Shown here: positions 22,257 through 35,957 of the stretch, one piece after another
Numbering within the stretch: the stretch's first letter is position 1
Layout of the letters: the number at the start of each line of letters is the position of its first letter
Assembly: GCA_020630175.1 (NCBI GenBank)
Contig: JAHDBW010000019.1
Coordinates: forward strand, 1 to 35,987
From: Anaerolineales bacterium
GTDB lineage: Bacteria; Chloroflexota; Anaerolineae; Anaerolineales; UBA6668
Direction of reading: 5' to 3'
Length of the DNA: 35,987 nt
Translations under genes and position numbers: made by a program
The notes under the pieces: model-generated
What the model was told of the DNA's origin: nothing
Database searches by the model: none
What the model saw: only the letters and a program-made list of their open reading frames with translations

Positions 22257-23195
22257 TTACATCAACTTTGTTGACCACCAAGTCCGCATGAGCTCGCGCG
22301 CTTTTTTGCGTTTCTTGGTAAAAGCGCGATTGTTGAACACGTCATAGTCGTTTTGTTCAATTTCACCCAAAATTGCGCGGTATAAGTTCGCGGCAGATGC
22401 AATTGAAAAGCGACCATCTTTATTCAGCATGGCAATACCTGGCGTTGCGTCTTCATAAAGTTGGCGCGTGCGTGCAATTTGAAATTGCATAAACTTGCGC
22501 CAAGCTGGGGTAACGTCGCCACGCGCAATATCTGCATCGCTTAGCCCAAATGCCGCGAGTTCATCCTGTGGCAAGTAAACCCGGCCCATGCGATAGTCTT
22601 CCCCAACATCACGCAGGATATTGGTCATCTGTAACGCAATGCCCAGCTTGATGGCATAAGCCGCCGCATCATCTGTTAGATAACCCACGATGTGCATGCT
22701 CATGAGGCCAACCGTGCTGGCCACGGCATAGGAGTAATCCGCAACTTCGTCAAAGTTTTGATAGCGAACCTTAGAGAGATCTGAGTAAACGCCATCAATG
22801 AGTTGATGTGCATAAATCTGCGGAATGCGATAATTACGACGCGCGTCTGTCCAAGCAAGGACTGCTAAATCATTGGTCTGTGGTAACTCGATAAGGCTTC
22901 GTTGACGCCAAGCGATAACATCCTCCGTAATATTGCTCGCTGGGTTCGGATTGTCTACAATATCGTCAGTAATTCGGCAAAAGGCATATAAAGCGCGGAC
23001 GGCTTTACGTTTATGCAAGGGCAACAATTGCGAGGCAACGTAAAACGACTTACTATGTTGCGACGTCATCCGACTGCAATAGTCGTAGGCATAGTCCAGT
23101 GCCATTTGTTGTTCATTACTGATTGTCCCGACAGGCCCAAAGGCGTGTGGTGCGTATTCTTTTGGGGTGTCTAGATATTTTTCGATGTACAGCAT
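22257..23195 (-). CDS. crtB: Phytoene synthase (squalene/phytoene synthase family)
   Basis: A 312-residue prenyl-condensing enzyme that joins two geranylgeranyl diphosphates into phytoene, the first committed carotenoid step. Both Asp-rich Mg sites are present: ITDDIVDNP (D77, D78, D81) and ALQMTNILRDVGED. The flanking family motifs HSKSFYVASQLLP, VRALYAFCR and MGRVYLPQDEL are also seen. The length is typical. The gene is transcribed away from the B12-type MerR regulator across a 272-base region full of half-sites. No clear Shine-Dalgarno precedes the ATG. It is the only carotenoid gene on minus, facing the bidirectional terminator. A squalene synthase role is less likely given the desaturase and cyclase nearby. 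Confidence 0.94.
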   Translation of the reverse strand: MLYIEKYLDTPKEYAPHAFGPVGTISNEQQMALDYAYDYCSRMTSQHSKSFYVASQLLPLHKRKAVRALYAFCRITDDIVDNPNPASNITEDVIAWRQRSLIELPQTNDLAVLAWTDARRNYRIPQIYAHQLIDGVYSDLSKVRYQNFDEVADYSYAVASTVGLMSMHIVGYLTDDAAAYAIKLGIALQMTNILRDVGEDYRMGRVYLPQDELAAFGLSDADIARGDVTPAWRKFMQFQIARTRQLYEDATPGIAMLNKDGRFSIASAANLYRAILGEIEQNDYDVFNNRAFTKKRKKARELMRTWWSTKLM

Positions 23196-23467: not shown

Positions 23468-24805
23468 ATGTCGCCTACAGACACATCGCCAACCTTCAAC
23501 CTGAAAGTTGCAGTCAAAGAAACTGGAGTAAAAGCAGATACCTTACGTGCTTGGGAGCGGCGGTACGGTTTACCGACCCCGCGCCGGACGCAAGGTGGGC
23601 ATCGCTTATATTCCCCGCGCGACATTCAAACCATTCTATGGCTTGTTGAGCGCCAACGCGGTGGCATGAGCATTAGCCGCGCAGTCGAACTGTGGCGTCA
23701 ATATGAAAGTGAAGGCCAAGATCCGCTTGAAATGCTGCCGGTCAACTCACCAAGTGTTACGACCGCTGCCACTGAAGACCTCTCAAACGCAAAAGGCTTA
23801 GATTCCTTTAGAGAGCGCTGGGTACAAACGGCGCTGGACTTTAACGAAAAAGGATCTGACGCAGTCCTTAATCAAGCGCTGGCGATTTTTCCAATTGAAC
23901 GCGTTGTGCTGGATCTAATCAGCAAAGGCATCGCAGAAATTGGCCAAGCTTGGTATGAAGGCACGGTCAACGTGCATCAAGAGCACTTTGCTACTGCGCT
24001 CGCCGTTCGCAAAATGGAATCAATGTTGGCTGGTGCACCGCCACCAACGCGCCCCGGGCGAATTTTGGCCGGTTGCCCGCCAGAAGAAACGCACACCTTC
24101 GGCTTACTTGTGCTCACGTTGCTACTGCGCCGTCAGGGCTGGGAAGTTATTTACCTTGGCGCACGCGTCCCGCTGATGCGTTTTGGCACAACAATTGATC
24201 ACACTCAGCCAGACCTAGTATTGCTGTCTTGCCAACAATTATTCACCGCCGCAGAAATGGCCGAGATTGCTAACCTTTTGGCGGTCAAAAATGTGCCGCT
24301 TGCGTATGGTGGGTTGGTCTTCAATGCAATTCCAGAATTGCGCTCGCGGATTCACGGCCACTTTCTAGGCACTTCAATTGAGCACGTGCCAGAAATGGTA
24401 GAGCGCCTGCTGATGCGCGATGTGCCATTGCCCGCCGTCAAATCGCCAACGCGCGAATATGAAACGCTCTTGCAAAGCTACCGTGAAGCCCGTCCGCTCA
24501 TTGAAAGCTACGTCTGGCAGTGTTTTGACTCACGCAGTGTTTCGCAAGGCATGCTGACCACCTGTAACAAATGCTTTGGTGACAGCATCGGCGCGGCATT
24601 GCGGTTGGGTGATATTAGCTTTGTAGGGCCAGACATCCAGTGGGTGCGCGGCTTCTTTTTACACGCTGGTTTGCCAGATATTTTGATTGAAGAATACCTT
24701 GGCGTCTATCATCAGGCGCTTCAAAAATACATGCCTCACGCCGATCAAATGTTGATTTCTTGGATTGAGAGAATCATTAGTGAAATTGACGTAATAACGC
24801 GGTAA
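23468..24805 (+). CDS. CarH/LitR-like MerR regulator with cobalamin-binding domain
   Basis: A 445-residue DNA-binding protein. Residues 10-75 are a MerR winged helix (VKADTLRAWERRYGLPTPRRT, GHRLYSPRDI). Residues 130-310 are a B12-binding four-helix bundle plus Rossmann fold. W162 and E172-H173 form the Wx9EH motif of AdoCbl photoreceptors, and E207-x-H209-x-x-G212 supplies the lower axial histidine. In Thermus CarH the residue after the Trp is the His that ligates cobalt in the light; here it is Y163. A further 135-residue C-terminal region (about 310-445) is absent from classical CarH. By family knowledge, dark AdoCbl-bound protein represses carotenoid genes and light releases it. The position next to crtB agrees. 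The promoter suggests a leaderless, self-controlled transcript. Confidence 0.88.
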   Translation: MSPTDTSPTFNLKVAVKETGVKADTLRAWERRYGLPTPRRTQGGHRLYSPRDIQTILWLVERQRGGMSISRAVELWRQYESEGQDPLEMLPVNSPSVTTAATEDLSNAKGLDSFRERWVQTALDFNEKGSDAVLNQALAIFPIERVVLDLISKGIAEIGQAWYEGTVNVHQEHFATALAVRKMESMLAGAPPPTRPGRILAGCPPEETHTFGLLVLTLLLRRQGWEVIYLGARVPLMRFGTTIDHTQPDLVLLSCQQLFTAAEMAEIANLLAVKNVPLAYGGLVFNAIPELRSRIHGHFLGTSIEHVPEMVERLLMRDVPLPAVKSPTREYETLLQSYREARPLIESYVWQCFDSRSVSQGMLTTCNKCFGDSIGAALRLGDISFVGPDIQWVRGFFLHAGLPDILIEEYLGVYHQALQKYMPHADQMLISWIERIISEIDVITR

Positions 24806-26390: not shown

Positions 26391-27935
26391 ATGACAAAAG
26401 CGATTGTAATTGGTGCCGGGGTTGGTGGGCTTACAACAGCAGCTTTATTAGCAAAAGCCGGTGTTGATGTCACAGTTTTGGAAGCGCATGTGTATCCTGG
26501 CGGGTGCGCAGGAACATTTTTCCACAAGGGGTATAAATTTGATGCTGGCGCAACGTTAGCGGGCGGCTTTTATCCGGATGGTCCCATGGATGTCATTGCC
26601 AAGACAGTTGGCATTACAGAGTGGCCGTCACATTCTAGCGACCCGGCGATGACGGTGCAGCTGCCGTCTGGGCAAACCATCACCCGTTGGATTGATGAAG
26701 ACCAGCGGATTGCAGAGCGCCGTGCCGCATTTGGTAAACAGTCAGACAAGTTTTTCGACTGGCAAGAAGCAACCGCTGATGCGTTATGGGAATTTGCAAT
26801 GCGTTTTCCGGCTTGGCCGCCGCAGTCTGCGCGCCAAGTTTTGCAACTGGGCGGGCACGTTACTGGCTGGCTTGGGTCTCGTGCGTTACAAGCGCCATTG
26901 CGGCTGCCGGGCATTGGCTTAGATGTTTTTCGCTCAGTGGGGCATCATTTATCCTCACAGAGTGATGCACTGCGATTGTTCATCGATGCACAACTTCTGA
27001 TTGCTGCACAAACAACTAGCAAGCACGCCAATGCGCTTTACGGCGCCTCCGCGTTGGACCTACCACGCCGTGGCATTGTGCATCTCAAGGGCGGGATTGG
27101 CGCTATTGCTGAAGAGCTAGCCCAAGCAGTGCGCAATAATGGCGGCGACATTATCTATCGACAGGAAGTTTTGTCTGTTGAGCGCGACTCGGGTAATAAA
27201 TATATTATCGAAACCAAACGGCGCAACGGCAAAAACACGTTCGAAGCCGATTTTGTGGTTGCGAATCTACCACCTTGGAATATTCGCAAGTTGCTTGGTA
27301 ACGCAACGCCACCAAAACTGAAACAATTGCCAGCGCGTCCAAAAGATGGTTGGGGGGCGTTCATGATTTATGTTGGCCTTGATGAAGCGGCGTTACCCAA
27401 AGATTTCCCATTGCATCATCAAGTGATTGCCGGTGAGCCGTTAGGGGAAGGCAACAGCATTTTCTTATCACTCAGTCCAGACTGGGACGGTGCCCGTGCG
27501 CCACAAGGCCAGCGCGCACTCACCATTTCTACGCATACGAATCTTGCCAAATGGTGGGATCTGCTCGCTGCTGATCCTGAGGAGTATGGGCGTCAAAAAG
27601 AGGTTTACACCAAGGCTATGCTGACGCTGGCTGAGAAAGCCATTCCAAATTTGCGTGACGCAGCGCAGCTAATCAAGGCCGGTACGCCTGTGACCTTTAA
27701 CCGCTTTACACGCCGTGAATGGGGTTGGGTGGGTGGCTTTCCGCAAACCAACTTGTTCCGAGCGTGGGGTCCCAAGCTCATGCCAGATTTTTGGATGGTG
27801 GGCGACAGTATCTTCCCAGGTCAGTCAACGGCAGCCGTGGCGCTAGGCGGCCTGCGCGTTGCGCGTGATATTTTGCATGAATATGGCCTGTCTGAAGCAG
27901 TGCCGCAAGCGGTCACTGAGGCGGGTTTGGCATGA
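26391..27935 (+). CDS. CrtI/CrtD-type carotenoid desaturase (FAD-dependent oxidoreductase)
   Basis: A 514-residue flavoprotein. The N-terminal dinucleotide fold is [21 protein letters not shown] with [17 protein letters not shown]. The middle has [26 protein letters not shown], the second FAD segment of phytoene-desaturase-like enzymes. The C-terminus ends with [23 protein letters not shown], the family FAD-binding signature. Whether it acts on phytoene (CrtI), introduces a C3,4 bond (CrtD) or isomerises cannot be read from sequence alone. The YPGGCAGTF variant is common in CrtD- and CRTISO-like members. The nearby crtB and lycopene cyclase make a carotenoid substrate very likely. Its last codon overlaps the photolyase start (ATGA), so the two proteins are made from one coupled mRNA. 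Confidence 0.87.
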
Positions 27936-29377
27936 AAACAGTCATTTGGTGGATTCGGCGCGATTTACGCCTCACAGATAATCAAGCGCTAGACGCGGCC
28001 TTGCACAATGCGGAGGCTATCATTCCTGTGTTTGTGCTGGATGACAAAATCTTAGCGTCCGACTATGTGGGTAATAAGCAGGTTGCCTTTATGCTAGCTG
28101 GTTTACAGGCGTTAGATGATGCGTTGCAAGCCCGTGGCAATCGACTGATTGTGCGGCGGGGCGATCCGGTGGCAGAACTGCGCCAGCTTGTTGAAGAGAC
28201 GGGCGCAACCGCAATTTATGCTGAGCGGGCCAACTCGCCATACGCCAAGCAACGTGATGCAGCTGTGGCTGAATTTGCGGCGCTGACGCTTACCGCTGGC
28301 ATCAGCATCCAAGAGCCGTGGGATGTGCTAAAGAAAGACGGTACGCCTTATACCGTTTTTACGCCGTATAAAAAACGCTGGTATGCATTGCTGAAACCAG
28401 AACAGCGGGCAGTGCTGGATGCGCCAGCGCATATTCCCGCGCCTGATGGGCATATCGAAAGTTTGCCATTGCCTGCCAGCCCCGCGTTAGCGCAACCGTT
28501 ACAGTATGTGTCTGGCGCAGCACGTGCCCAAGCGCTATTGACGCAGTTTGTAGCTGCAGAGCAACGCGACGCGCCAGCGCTATGTTTTTATGACGAGCAG
28601 CGTGATTTACCAAGCGTGGACGGCACTTCGTCGCTGTCTGCCTATTTACGGTTTGGCATGTTGTCCGCACGGCAAGCGGCTGATGCCGGCTTGAAACGCA
28701 TTCAATCTGCGAAAAGTAAGGCTGAACGGGAAAATGCGTCTGTTTGGGTGAGTGAGCTCATTTGGCGTGATTTTTACATGAGCATTTTGTATCACTTTCC
28801 GCATGTGATTGACGGTAACTTTCGGCCAGATTATGACTATATCGACTGGCGCAATGATACAACTGAGTTTGCAGCGTGGTGCGCCGGAAAAACGGGGTAT
28901 CCCATTGTAGATGCCGCCATGCGCCAATTGGTGCAAACCGGCTGGATGCACAACCGCGCCCGCATGATTGTGGCGTCCTTTTTAGTGAAAGATTTGCTAA
29001 TCGATTGGCGCTGGGGGGAGAAGTTCTTCATGCAGCATCTCATTGATGGCGATCCCGCAGCGAACAATGGCGGCTGGCAGTGGGCGGCTGGCACCGGCAC
29101 AGACGCTGCGCCGTATTTCCGCATCTTCAATCCGATGTCGCAAAGTAAGAAGTTTGATGGCAATGGCGATTATATTCGACGCTATGTGCCAGAGTTAGCC
29201 AACGTGCCTAAGAAATATATCCACGCCCCATGGGAGATGCCACCGTTGGAACAAGCCTTGGCGAAGGTTGAAATTGGTACCGACTATCCCGCGCCGATTG
29301 TGGACCATAAACTGGCGCGCTTACGTACACTTGATGCGTATAAGGCGAGCAAGGCTGTGGCTGCTGAAAAGCGATAA
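27932..29377 (+). CDS. phr: Deoxyribodipyrimidine photolyase (class I CPD type)
   Basis: A 481-residue light-driven DNA repair enzyme that splits pyrimidine dimers using FADH- and an antenna cofactor. The N-terminal antenna domain begins [15 protein letters not shown]. The FAD domain has [72 protein letters not shown] and [18 protein letters not shown]. The conserved Asn/Trp of true photolyases and the electron-transfer Trp residues appear to be kept, so this is a repair enzyme rather than a cryptochrome. It is translationally coupled to the carotenoid desaturase (ATGA), a pairing that fits a light-response operon, and ends in its own terminator. Confidence 0.95.
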
Positions 29378-32770: not shown

Positions 32771-34054
32771 GTGCTACATCAACCCCCAACTCCAGATCCA
32801 CAGGCCGGTTTAGCCGCGCTAAAAAATATGGTGCGCCAGCGAACGCCGCTCGCCGCCCTTGAAACCTTTCATTCGCATTATGGCAATGCCTTTCAGGCAA
32901 ATTTACCCGGATTTTCCGCCACGGTCCTAAGTGGGGCAGACGCGTGTCGCTTTGTATTGTCGGCAACGTCAGAGACCTTAGCTTGGCGACACGAAACAGA
33001 TCCGATTGCGAAGCTGCTCAACCAAGGCATGCTGGTGACTGATGCCGCGGCACATGACGAAATGCGGCGCATTATGACGCCCGCTTTTCACCGCAAGATG
33101 TTGAGCACATATAGTGACGCCATGACGTGGGCCACAGATATCACGCTCGGACAATGGGCGCCGACTGACGAGCGCGATATGCTTAACGATATGCGGCGTT
33201 TGACGCTGCTAGCGTTGATGAAGGCGTTGTTCAACATTGACTTTTCGCAGCGTATTGACCCGCTGTGGGAGCCAATCCTAAAGTCGCTGAAATACATTTC
33301 ACCGGGCGCTTGGCTGCTGTGGACGAACGTGCCAAGGCCGGGCTATAAAAAAGCGCTGGCGCAGATTGATACCTATTTGTACGCCGTCATTGAAAAAAGA
33401 CGCCAGCAAACGGAACAGCCAGCAGATTTATTAGGGCTGCTAATCGATGCCGAACTTTCTGACAGTTTGATCCGTGATCAGCTATTGACAATGCTGATTG
33501 CGGGACATGACACTTGCACCGCGTTATTGGCGTGGGTCATGCTGTTGGTTGCCGACCATCCCGATGTGCAAAACGAGGCGCGGGCAACGGTTCTGCAAAC
33601 CCTCGGCACGGCTGCGCCAACCATTGAAACGCTCAAAACATTGCCGGTGCTAGATAACATCGTCAATGAGACCATGCGCTTGTATCCGCCAGTGCATGCT
33701 GGCAATCGGTTTGCGGCACAAGACCTGACGTTTGATGGCTATCACATTCCGAAAGGGCAGCGGGTGATGTATTCCATTTACCTCACGCACCGTGACCCGC
33801 AGTTGTGGCCAGACCCTTTGCAGTTTCGGCCACAGCGCTTTGAAACAAAGCCCGCAGCCTTTACGTTTGTGCCTTTTGGCGGCGGCAGCCGGATTTGTAT
33901 TGGCTATCGGTTTGCCCAGATTGAAGCGGCCTTGGTGCTAGCGCGCGTCTTGCAGAATTGGCAATTGACGCCAGTGGCACAAAAACAACATTTACACATG
34001 GGCGCGACGCTTGAGCCGCGACCGAAAGCACTGGTACGTGTAACCGCGTTGTAA
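32771..34054 (+). CDS. Cytochrome P450, candidate carotenoid hydroxylase
   Basis: A 427-residue soluble P450 starting with GTG. The I-helix AGHDT (244-248) supplies the oxygen-activation Thr. The ExxR pair is E300/R303 in NETMRLYPP. The PERF-type region reads FRPQRF, and the heme loop is FVPFGGGSRICIG with the cysteine ligand C376. These are complete, so the enzyme should be active with ferredoxin-type partners not seen here. It lies just before a lycopene cyclase gene. CYP175A1 of Thermus, a beta-carotene 3-hydroxylase, is the known precedent of a bacterial P450 in this position, so I infer a carotenoid ring hydroxylase. Substrate assignment rests on neighbours, not on residues. Confidence 0.9.
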   Translation: MLHQPPTPDPQAGLAALKNMVRQRTPLAALETFHSHYGNAFQANLPGFSATVLSGADACRFVLSATSETLAWRHETDPIAKLLNQGMLVTDAAAHDEMRRIMTPAFHRKMLSTYSDAMTWATDITLGQWAPTDERDMLNDMRRLTLLALMKALFNIDFSQRIDPLWEPILKSLKYISPGAWLLWTNVPRPGYKKALAQIDTYLYAVIEKRRQQTEQPADLLGLLIDAELSDSLIRDQLLTMLIAGHDTCTALLAWVMLLVADHPDVQNEARATVLQTLGTAAPTIETLKTLPVLDNIVNETMRLYPPVHAGNRFAAQDLTFDGYHIPKGQRVMYSIYLTHRDPQLWPDPLQFRPQRFETKPAAFTFVPFGGGSRICIGYRFAQIEAALVLARVLQNWQLTPVAQKQHLHMGATLEPRPKALVRVTAL

Positions 34055-34132: not shown

Positions 34133-34942
34133 ATGACCTATTTTGGATTTTTGGCAATTTTTGTTGGTATTCCGCTTCTGGGCGTCTTACTTTGGAATCA
34201 ACGTGACGCGCGCAAAGGATTAGCACTACCTACAGATCTGCAAACGTGGTCACCGTGGGTTGTGATCTGGGGCCATGTGATTGTTGCTGTGCTTTACACC
34301 ACGCCGTGGGATAACTACCTCGTGGCAACGCGCGTGTGGTGGTATGACCCAGCGCTAGTGACAGGTCTACTGATCGGCTGGGTGCCAATTGAAGAGTACA
34401 CTTTTTTTGTGGTGCAAACGTTGCTAGTTGGCGTTGCGCTGCTGCTGGTGTTGCGGCGTCAACCTGTCAAAACGCCATTTGTGCCGAACTTACAACTGCG
34501 TATTGGCGCTACCTTGGGCGCGGGGCTGTTGTGGTTTGTTTCGGTTTGCTTCTTAGTGCTCAATATTCGCGCTGGTACTTATTTTGGCTTAGAAATGGGC
34601 TGGGCACTGTTGCCAATTATGTTCCAACTTGCATTTGGTGCTGATATTCTTTGGCACTACCGACGTCCAGTGCTGGGTGTGTTGCTAGGGTTTACCGCAT
34701 ACCTATCCTTTGCAGATACGCTGGCTATTGCCAGTGGTACTTGGACTATTGATCCGGCGCAGTCTTTCAATATTTTCTTGCCGGGCGGGCTGCCGATTGA
34801 AGAATTGATTTTCTTCTTTCTGACTTGTACGCTGGTGTGTTTCGGGGTGACGCTGGTGTTAGCAGAAATGAGTCAACAACGCGCCGCACCTGCGCTAAAA
34901 TACTGTCCACCAGTTTTACAGCGTTTTTTACCAAGCACCTAA
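34133..34942 (+). CDS. Lycopene cyclase, fused CrtYcd (CarR-domain) type
   Basis: A 269-residue integral membrane protein with about seven helices and two tandem lycopene-cyclase domains. The first half has TTPWDNYLVATRVWWY (about 56-71) and PIEEY (85-89). The second half has FADTLAIASGTWTID and PIEEL (221-225). The paired P-x-E-E motifs are the hallmark of the heterodimeric CrtYc/CrtYd cyclases of actinobacteria, here on one chain as in archaeal and fungal CarRP/CrtY forms. Activity: beta (or epsilon) cyclisation of lycopene ends. It follows the P450 by 78 bases, with AGGACA upstream of the ATG as a moderate ribosome site. The candidate selenoprotein gene starts 13 bases after its stop. Confidence 0.9.
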   Translation: MTYFGFLAIFVGIPLLGVLLWNQRDARKGLALPTDLQTWSPWVVIWGHVIVAVLYTTPWDNYLVATRVWWYDPALVTGLLIGWVPIEEYTFFVVQTLLVGVALLLVLRRQPVKTPFVPNLQLRIGATLGAGLLWFVSVCFLVLNIRAGTYFGLEMGWALLPIMFQLAFGADILWHYRRPVLGVLLGFTAYLSFADTLAIASGTWTIDPAQSFNIFLPGGLPIEELIFFFLTCTLVCFGVTLVLAEMSQQRAAPALKYCPPVLQRFLPST

Positions 34943-34955
34943 CATTATTCATGTC

Positions 34956-35489
34956 ATGATCAACACTACACTTGACCAATCCCTGTTAGATCAACCTGTC
35001 GTTGGCGTAAACCTAACCGCAGAAACCTTCTCAGAGGCCTTAGGCGATTCGAAAACGCTGCTTATTTTCCTGCGCCACTTTGGCTGACTTTTTTGCCGTG
35101 AAACTGTAAAAGATCTGCGTAAGATTGTTGCTGAAGATCCGAATTACCCAGCGGTGCTGTTTATTCACCAAGGGTCACCGAGATCAGGCCGCCGATTTTT
35201 CAACCGTTTCTGGCCAGAGGCACGGGCTGTCTCTGATAAAACTGCAGACTTGTATTCTGAATTTGGCTTAGTGCGTGGTGGCACCAAAGAAATGTTTGGT
35301 CTACCGGTATGGAAGCATGCGCTGCGTGCCATCCGGAAAGGAGCCTTTGTTGGCAAGCCGACACACGACCCGTGGCTGATGCCGGGGGCCTTCATCGTCG
35401 AAGGTGGGGTGGTGGTCTGGGAGCACGACTATGACAATATTGGTGATCATCCAGATTTGCCAAGCCTGACAAACTTCGTCACCGCATAA
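34956..35489 (+). CDS. AhpC/TSA-like (PRXL2/SelU-like) thioredoxin-fold protein, candidate selenoprotein with in-frame TGA
   Basis: Read through one TGA, the frame gives 177 residues. MINTTLDQ begins it, then TLLIFLRHFG, the TGA (codon 44, 35085-35087) and LFCRETVKDLR. In AhpC-TSA_2/PRXL2 proteins this segment is LRHFGCxxCRE, so the TGA replaces the first cysteine of CxxC and would give U44-x-x-C47. The frame continues with family-like sequence: VLFIHQG, FFNRFWPEARAVSD, LYSEFGLVRG, MPGAFIVEGG. Sequence on both sides is intact, which argues against decay. Such proteins are thiol/selenol oxidoreductases of uncertain substrate. Alternatives are a nonsense mutation or a sequencing error. selA-D and tRNA-Sec are not in the window. 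The next downstream start (GTG 35154) would lose the active site. Confidence 0.75.
35085..35125 (+). other. UGA codon and candidate bacterial SECIS hairpins
   Basis: Directly after TGA, CTTTT (35088-35092) can pair with AAAAG (35108-35112). Further on, ATCT (35113-35116) pairs with AGAT (35122-35125) with a loop starting with G, 29 bases from the TGA. Both stems are weak. Bacterial SECIS elements sit in this interval. Confidence 0.4.
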
Positions 35490-35552: not shown

Positions 35553-35957
35553 TTACCAAACGCCAGTATCAACACGTTTGGTGAACTCATCACGCATTGC
35601 GGCGATGGTGTCTTCAAAAACATCTGCTGGCACGGAGTCTTCCATTTTGCCCAGCAGGTAAACAATCCAGCCGGGCCAGAAATCAGGTTTTACATCGCTG
35701 AGTGCCTCAGCAGCTACGTCAAGCGCATTGCGGGCAACGGCGAGGCGTTCCCCCGTTGTTTCTGGGCGTTGCGTTGGCAGGGGCTGTTTTAGGTCTAGCT
35801 TGTTTTCTATGCGGTCAACTGCGGCAGTTACAATCAGGTCTACAATCTGATCCATTTCTTGGCGTAATTCAGCATCTACTGCCACGTTGTTGCTTGTGAG
35901 TGCCATTGAGAGATAGTGCACCAATAAATTACTGGCGTCGCGTTGAGAGTTTGACAT
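35553..35957 (-). CDS. Uncharacterised 134-residue helical protein
   Basis: I do not recognise this protein. It begins MSNSQRDASNLLVHYLSMAL, is mostly alpha-helical and acidic, and has no signal peptide or clear membrane helix. A tryptophan/proline patch, PDFWPGWIVYLLGKMEDSVP, lies near residue 90-110 and may be a buried core or binding surface. The ATG at 35957 has no Shine-Dalgarno. Codon use is like that of its neighbours, and no overlapping better frame exists, so the gene is probably real. It is convergent with the candidate selenoprotein gene and shares its terminator. The context suggests no role. Confidence 0.65.
   Translation of the reverse strand: MSNSQRDASNLLVHYLSMALTSNNVAVDAELRQEMDQIVDLIVTAAVDRIENKLDLKQPLPTQRPETTGERLAVARNALDVAAEALSDVKPDFWPGWIVYLLGKMEDSVPADVFEDTIAAMRDEFTKRVDTGVW

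Follow-up and report, generated by a model that had tools for sequence, protein, structure and literature searches.

A SelL-related Protein of an Anaerolineales Bacterium Very Probably Carries Selenocysteine at Its Peroxiredoxin-like Active Site

Introduction

The motif of selenoprotein L (SelL) is spelled UxxU. SelL is described as a protein of a Prx-like family from aquatic animals and marine bacteria, and its occurrence in prokaryotes or marine bacteria has been in print since 2008 (PMC2398784, PMC2397514). It carries a diselenide, i.e. two selenocysteines (PMC2397514). A further relative is an AhpC/TSA family selenoprotein with the motif UxxS, assigned to PF13911 in PMC9312934 and to cd02970 in Table 1 of PMC13188914. 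The table of 119 prokaryotic selenoprotein families in the latter paper (2026) lists neither SelL nor NF040769; the comparison was made by name, and entries under other names may overlap. Possible cases of overlap, known by their descriptions, are 'Prx-like thiol:disulfide oxidoreductase' (PF00578, UxxC/UxxU) and 'Redoxin family protein' (UxxC), both in PMC13188914, and the 'ULPU-containing selenoprotein' (PMC5029168). A literature search pairing 'SelL-related' with 'selenoprotein' returned no paper.

The gene analyzed here comes from an Anaerolineales bacterium. The window, i.e. the whole stretch of 35,987 nucleotides that was studied, is contig C233 of the organism's own genome (G000; 4.69 Mb, 500 contigs, 91% complete). 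The gene product resembles the NCBIfam family NF040769 (SelL-related redox protein) in scoring above its cut-off and aligning with it across the TGA, and no difference from that family was found. It differs from SelL proper in having a cysteine (Cys47, codon TGC) in place of the second selenocysteine. With the UxxS selenoprotein it shares the Pfam family and the Sec form, whereas its own motif is UxxC. PRXL2B, the human prostamide/prostaglandin F synthase (9us9, 9usa), has the same fold, and its CxxC also lies at positions 44 and 47, but it has Cys where the window protein has Sec; this likeness is one of sequence and fold alone, at about 17% identity. Given prokaryotic SelL, the printed UxxS form, and the NCBI family, the window protein belongs to an already known kind; it is very probably a genuine selenoprotein and a new member of that kind.

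Results

The Gene and Its In-frame TGA

The forward-strand frame at 34956..35489 encodes 177 residues and ends in TAA. Its single internal stop is the TGA at 35085..35087 (codon 44), located where homologues have Cys and replacing the first Cys of the CxxC typical of the family; otherwise the frame is open. The flanking residues read RHFG-U-LFCRET, giving U44-L-F-C47, in which Cys47 (TGC, 35094..35096) is the presumed resolving partner. A first-pass annotation of this DNA had placed the TGA on the first catalytic Cys of a PRXL2/AhpC-TSA-like protein as U-x-x-C, with family-like sequence on both sides, and this was borne out. The match to NF040769 (140.3 bits, cut-off 120) spans residues 10-172 and thus crosses the TGA. 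Pfam AhpC-TSA_2 (PF13911) was called above its gathering threshold (38.3 bits, threshold 27), with the best stretch at residues 67-159, after the TGA. SelL-related (NF040769) within AhpC-TSA_2 is the more exact name. The same annotation held that a random nonsense mutation would rarely strike this codon. When the frame was computed with a Cys codon at position 44, this codon was indeed the site of only 1 of the 54 single-base changes able to create a stop. It had also anticipated annotation as a truncated gene from 35154, and a plain ORF caller did report only GTG 35154 to 35489 at the locus, a 111-residue fragment without the catalytic residue. A chance reading of an open frame was rejected on the strength of both profile matches, the figure of 1 in 54, and the presence of TGA at the same codon in the congeners described below. 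Almost certainly, 34956..35489 is an intact gene with a TGA read as selenocysteine at a peroxiredoxin-like active site, and we are highly confident that residue 44 itself is selenocysteine.

The AlphaFold2 model of the selenoprotein had a mean pLDDT of 95.8 and a pTM of 0.92, and residue 44 sits in it just before the first long helix (residues 45-60). The best solved match in Foldseek was 9usa, in which human prostamide/PGF synthase carries the mutations C44S/C47S (E 1.2e-7, TM 0.69 by query length); PrxQ and AhpE peroxiredoxins ranked next. A profile search yielded the wild-type structure 9us9 (E 1.4e-19), on whose FGCxxCR the FGUxxCR of the read-through protein aligned. The model and these matches support an attacking role for Sec44, with Cys47 as partner.

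Spread of the Family

Bacterial genome contigs were scanned for the pattern R-H-F-G-U-x-x-C-R-E, and at least 119 stretches were found. All 119 listed stretches were rechecked with a family profile made from alignment A2, which matched 117 of them, 46 of these having themselves helped to build the profile. L160 and L161 did not match the A2 profile and were left out, as was L159, in which the frame after the TGA is short. The titles of the 116 kept among those listed name 12 phyla or none (13 unassigned), led by Myxococcota (23), Actinomycetota (20), Chloroflexota (16), Planctomycetota (13), and Acidobacteriota (11), and some of these titles look mislabelled, e.g. that of a Pleurocapsa bin grouping with Anaerolineae. 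With the window protein alone as query, tblastn at E 1e-5 found 97 of the 119 listed loci. The count of at least 117 family loci points to a common occurrence of the family's Sec forms in a range of bacterial phyla.

Alignment A2 comprises 47 rows, i.e. the window protein and 46 of the 116 kept stretches. R40, H41, F42, G43, [U]44, C47, R48, and E49 are invariant in it. Each of the 47 aligned TGA proteins matched NF040769 with an E value no higher than 0.001; the comparison with the curated cut-off was made for the window protein. A quick tree was built from 131 TGA and 22 Cys proteins. In it the three congeners grouped together (SH-aLRT 99) within a 12-row group consisting entirely of TGA forms (SH-aLRT 95). 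The Cys rows required two changes on this tree, and the proportions of U and C on it carry no meaning because rows were picked by the TGA pattern or as hits in relatives. UxxU forms, sought by the exact pattern [HF/HL]GUxxU, were absent from all 400 Chloroflexota genomes searched.

Conservation of the TGA in Relatives

Both congeners searched, G001 and G002, carried TGA at the same codon at a protein identity of 65-69%, so that three separate assemblies (G000, G001, and G002) agree on it. Over the 120 codons after the TGA, dN for the three congener pairs was 0.23, 0.21, and 0.12, and dS was saturated, 2.8, and 1.3, respectively. Purifying selection acts on the part after the TGA, and decay of the gene in relatives, which the first-pass annotation had named as a sign against a selenoprotein, was not seen.

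The search was extended to 301 genomes, the own one included, most of them from the same order. A family match was present in 69 of the 301, and 26 of these 69 had the TGA form. The check for relatives with TGA or TGC at codon 44, proposed in the first-pass annotation, found TGA in some and TGC or TGT in others. Every one of the 26 was read, and all showed the TGA in an R[HY][FLY]GU motif. A single case, L066 (G208), reads UIPY, with Tyr replacing the second Cys. selA was matched in 25 of the 26 TGA-form genomes as compared with 254 of all 301; the one exception was G060, which is 63% complete. With selA as frequent as this in the order, its co-occurrence with the TGA form is weak evidence. 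G003, the only genome among the 301 from the same family and outside the genus, matched neither the gene nor selA. A second TGA subtype with the motif RHLGU[IL]P[CY]REH occurs in 15 genomes of the same order (L053-L067), and on the quick tree 14 rows of this subtype cluster with support.

Selenocysteine Machinery and Use of TGA

The components of selenocysteine insertion proposed for a search of the same genome were all present above curated thresholds: selA with 526.5 bits (cut-off 267.9), selB with 346.7 bits (cut-off 242.25), selD with 377.5 bits (cut-off 125), and tRNA-Sec with a score of 64.5 (cut-off 47) and, according to ARAGORN, the anticodon tca. The selD gene itself contains one internal TGA in the motif SYAACAG-U. 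This site is the catalytic one (PMC13188914). selD is a selenoprotein gene in all three congeners (G000:C1:6771-7712; L013, L195, L196), and in each of them its UGA is followed by a clean hairpin closed by the loop AGUU. selA and selD were found in both G001 and G002.

Release factor 2 was also present (488.7 bits, cut-off 370). Stop use in the 22 listed genes of the window (49% G+C) was 14 TAA, 7 TAG, and 1 TGA, the latter ending the CrtI-like gene and overlapping the start of the next gene. Release factor 2 together with this one case implies that TGA also serves as an ordinary stop.

RNA Structure after the UGA

The bacterial SECIS is described as a stem-loop just downstream of the UGA with a small apical loop containing G (PMC1088965). 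The 39 bases after the UGA of 135 TGA genes were compared with synonymous recodings and yielded a mean z of -1.22 ± 0.08, as against -0.16 in a distal control stretch taken from these genes. For 22 Cys genes the values were -0.04 at the same place and -0.55 ± 0.29 distally. With 48 bases the family signal was weaker (-0.87 for TGA genes versus -0.49 ± 0.21 for Cys genes). In the shared hairpin, +21..+27 and +32..+38 form the stem and +28..+31 the loop; mean pairing was about 0.35-0.5 versus 0.10-0.16 in recodings, and AGTT stood at +28..+31 in 85 of the 123 genes outside the clade of the window gene.

The window gene departs from this picture. The place at which most sampled relatives have the SECIS-like AGUU-loop hairpin corresponds to 35106..35123 (+), and the hairpin is absent there. 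For the 39-48 bases after its UGA, z was +0.25 to +0.9 against synonymous shuffles, and no SECIS stood out. The same applies to its 12-gene clade, for which the mean z for the family hairpin was about 0 versus -1.1 to -1.5 in the other 123 genes (starts +9 to +21) and consensus folding gave no structure. A weak candidate SECIS hairpin at 35112..35139 (+), with an outer stem GAUCU/AGAUC, an inner stem GUAA/UUGC, and the loop GAUUG, was not distinguishable from synonymous shuffles; the 30-base stretch starting at +27 in this region had a z of -0.94. Against dinucleotide shuffles, four single-strand folds of the window gene had z values of -0.9 to -1.26. Another hairpin, far downstream at +60 (z -2.2), was discarded as unsupported by the clade, whose mean was -0.5. 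The RNA folding suggested by the first-pass annotation as a check thus had a divided outcome: a hairpin follows the UGA in the family on average, whereas none beyond shuffles was detected in the window gene. The absent family hairpin weighs most against a selenoprotein case that is complete in other respects.

Gene Neighborhood

The selenoprotein gene is the last in a row of three on the forward strand. It is preceded by a gene for a lycopene-cyclase-like membrane protein at 34133..34942 (Pfam Lycopene_cyc, 23.3 bits, below the gathering threshold of 27), which ends 13 bases upstream of the selenoprotein gene, and by a cytochrome P450 gene at 32771..34054, recognized by a domain match. The adjacency of cyclase and selenoprotein is kept in both congeners, and that of the P450 gene in G002; in G001 the contig breaks off before reaching the latter. 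Further upstream, domain matches identified a squalene/phytoene synthase family (CrtB-like) gene at 22257..23195 on the reverse strand and three forward-strand genes: a regulator with MerR HTH and B12-binding domains at 23468..24805, which we take to be CarH-like, a desaturase at 26391-27935, presumably CrtI-like, and a DNA photolyase at 27932-29377, which the CrtI-like gene overlaps. On the other side, a 134-residue protein encoded at 35553-35957 (-) has no Pfam match; its gene is convergent with the selenoprotein gene and has 75% identity in both congeners.

Similar neighbors recur elsewhere. Of the loci listed, 20 belong to Chloroflexota or Thermomicrobiota, and 5 of these had carotenoid, photolyase, or CarH neighbors at E 1e-10, versus 1 of 96 others (Fisher p 5e-4); at E 1e-5 the counts were 5 of 20 versus 2 of 96 (p 0.0016). 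These p values are to be read with the unequal length of the stretches and the non-independence of related loci in mind. The threshold of 1e-10 was chosen after the hits at 1e-5 were known, the window was left uncounted, and the queries were Chloroflexota proteins, with which crt genes from other phyla may have gone undetected. L079 has CrtI, photolyase, and selenoprotein in a row, and in L184 CarH-like regulators lie beside the selenoprotein and CrtI. Long ORFs beside the L184 selenoprotein had been considered as MerR fusions and proved, by eye and tblastn, to be CarH-like instead.

In G017, G054, and G098, the Sec copy is directly preceded by a same-strand gene in which a Cys copy is joined to a MerR-type DNA-binding domain. 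These Cys copies have the motif RHFGCIFCREW and lie in L041 at 507-1391, with the TGA of the Sec copy at 1558 (G017:C6), in L044/L068 (G054:C103), and in L031 (G098:C97). In the L041 fusion, the one in which the HTH was tested, Pfam called MerR, and the C-terminal part was found by tblastn with the window protein; AhpC-TSA_2 was not called by Pfam. A search of 400 genomes of the phylum for the MerR::SelL fusion at E 1e-25 gave 7 with a match, none of which covered both halves in one match. The 609-residue frame of one of the 7 (L201) was dismissed as a MerR fusion, as no MerR part was visible by eye; it ends in a Cys-type SelL-like protein.

Discussion

Three explanations would dispense with selenocysteine at codon 44. 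A nonsense mutation might have truncated a Cys-type gene, and the break of the frame by TGA and the unclear SECIS of the window gene are what such a pseudogene would look like. The conservation of the TGA contradicts this explanation: it recurs in two congeners and at the same motif in 26 of the 301 genomes. Moreover, the frame contains no other stop, its downstream part is under purifying selection, and codon 44 would be hit by just one in 54 nonsense changes, so that a pseudogene is very unlikely. An error of sequencing or assembly changing TGC or TGT to TGA could be imagined for a genome in as many pieces as this one, but the identical TGA in the separate assemblies G001 and G002, whose proteins have diverged to 65-69% identity, makes it hardly conceivable. 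TGA might instead stand for another amino acid, e.g. Trp or Cys, through genome-wide reassignment or suppression, and its rarity as a stop (1 of 22 listed window genes) fits this notion. Against it stand release factor 2, the CrtI-like gene terminating in TGA, a dedicated tRNA-Sec with SelA, SelB, and SelD, and the selD TGA likewise placed at a catalytic site, and we consider reassignment extremely improbable. The remaining alternative concerns function: the protein may be a real Sec protein whose activity is that of a thioredoxin-like thiol-disulfide reductase or, in the manner of prostamide synthase, is directed at other substrates, its carotenoid neighbors being coincidental and without any link to light stress. 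Fifteen of the 47 aligned members also match models of thiol-disulfide oxidoreductases such as ResA, and in other phyla such neighbors are rare among the loci listed; the lycopene-cyclase-like adjacency in all three congeners and the 5 in 20 Chloroflexota and Thermomicrobiota loci listed speak for a link. To this alternative we assign an even chance.

For the selenoprotein reading, a reaction sequence can be proposed from the fold. UGA 44 would be decoded as selenocysteine by the host's SelA, SelB, SelD, and tRNA-Sec, all of which the genome encodes. The Sec44 selenolate would most likely attack a peroxide or a disulfide, Cys47 would resolve the attacked residue as a selenenylsulfide, and a thioredoxin-type donor would then reduce the latter. 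Two-electron peroxide or disulfide chemistry of this thioredoxin-fold selenoprotein appears reasonably likely.

The row of P450, cyclase, and selenoprotein lies in an island of carotenoid, photolyase, and CarH-like genes, from which we infer that the selenoenzyme would serve defense against photo-oxidative damage. The recurring neighbors and the MerR-fused copies likewise lead us to propose a peroxide or disulfide reductase for this purpose. Taken by itself, the light-stress role, based on neighborhood and fold, is a tentative assignment, less likely than not. The overall reading, a SelL-related/PRXL2 Sec protein with Sec44-Cys47 chemistry and a putative role in photo-oxidative defense, is nevertheless one that we hold with confidence. 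Possibly the MerR::SelL fusion is a redox-sensing regulator paired with its selenoenzyme. A broader proposal would make Anaerolineae SelL-type selenoproteins effectors of B12-photoreceptor (CarH-like) light-stress regulons that link selenium to photo-oxidative defense, with one genus pairing a MerR-fused Cys copy as redox sensor with the selenoenzyme and with the SECIS of the window clade departing from the AGUU hairpin; in this full form it is speculative and rather unlikely. The recurrence beside carotenoid, photolyase, and CarH-like genes provides the family with a testable function.

As a minor observation, L151 (Anaerolineae bacterium CFX9) has a row consisting of a partial CrtI-like gene, a photolyase gene, two genes that we presume to be hydrolase-like and TspO-like, and the selenoprotein gene.
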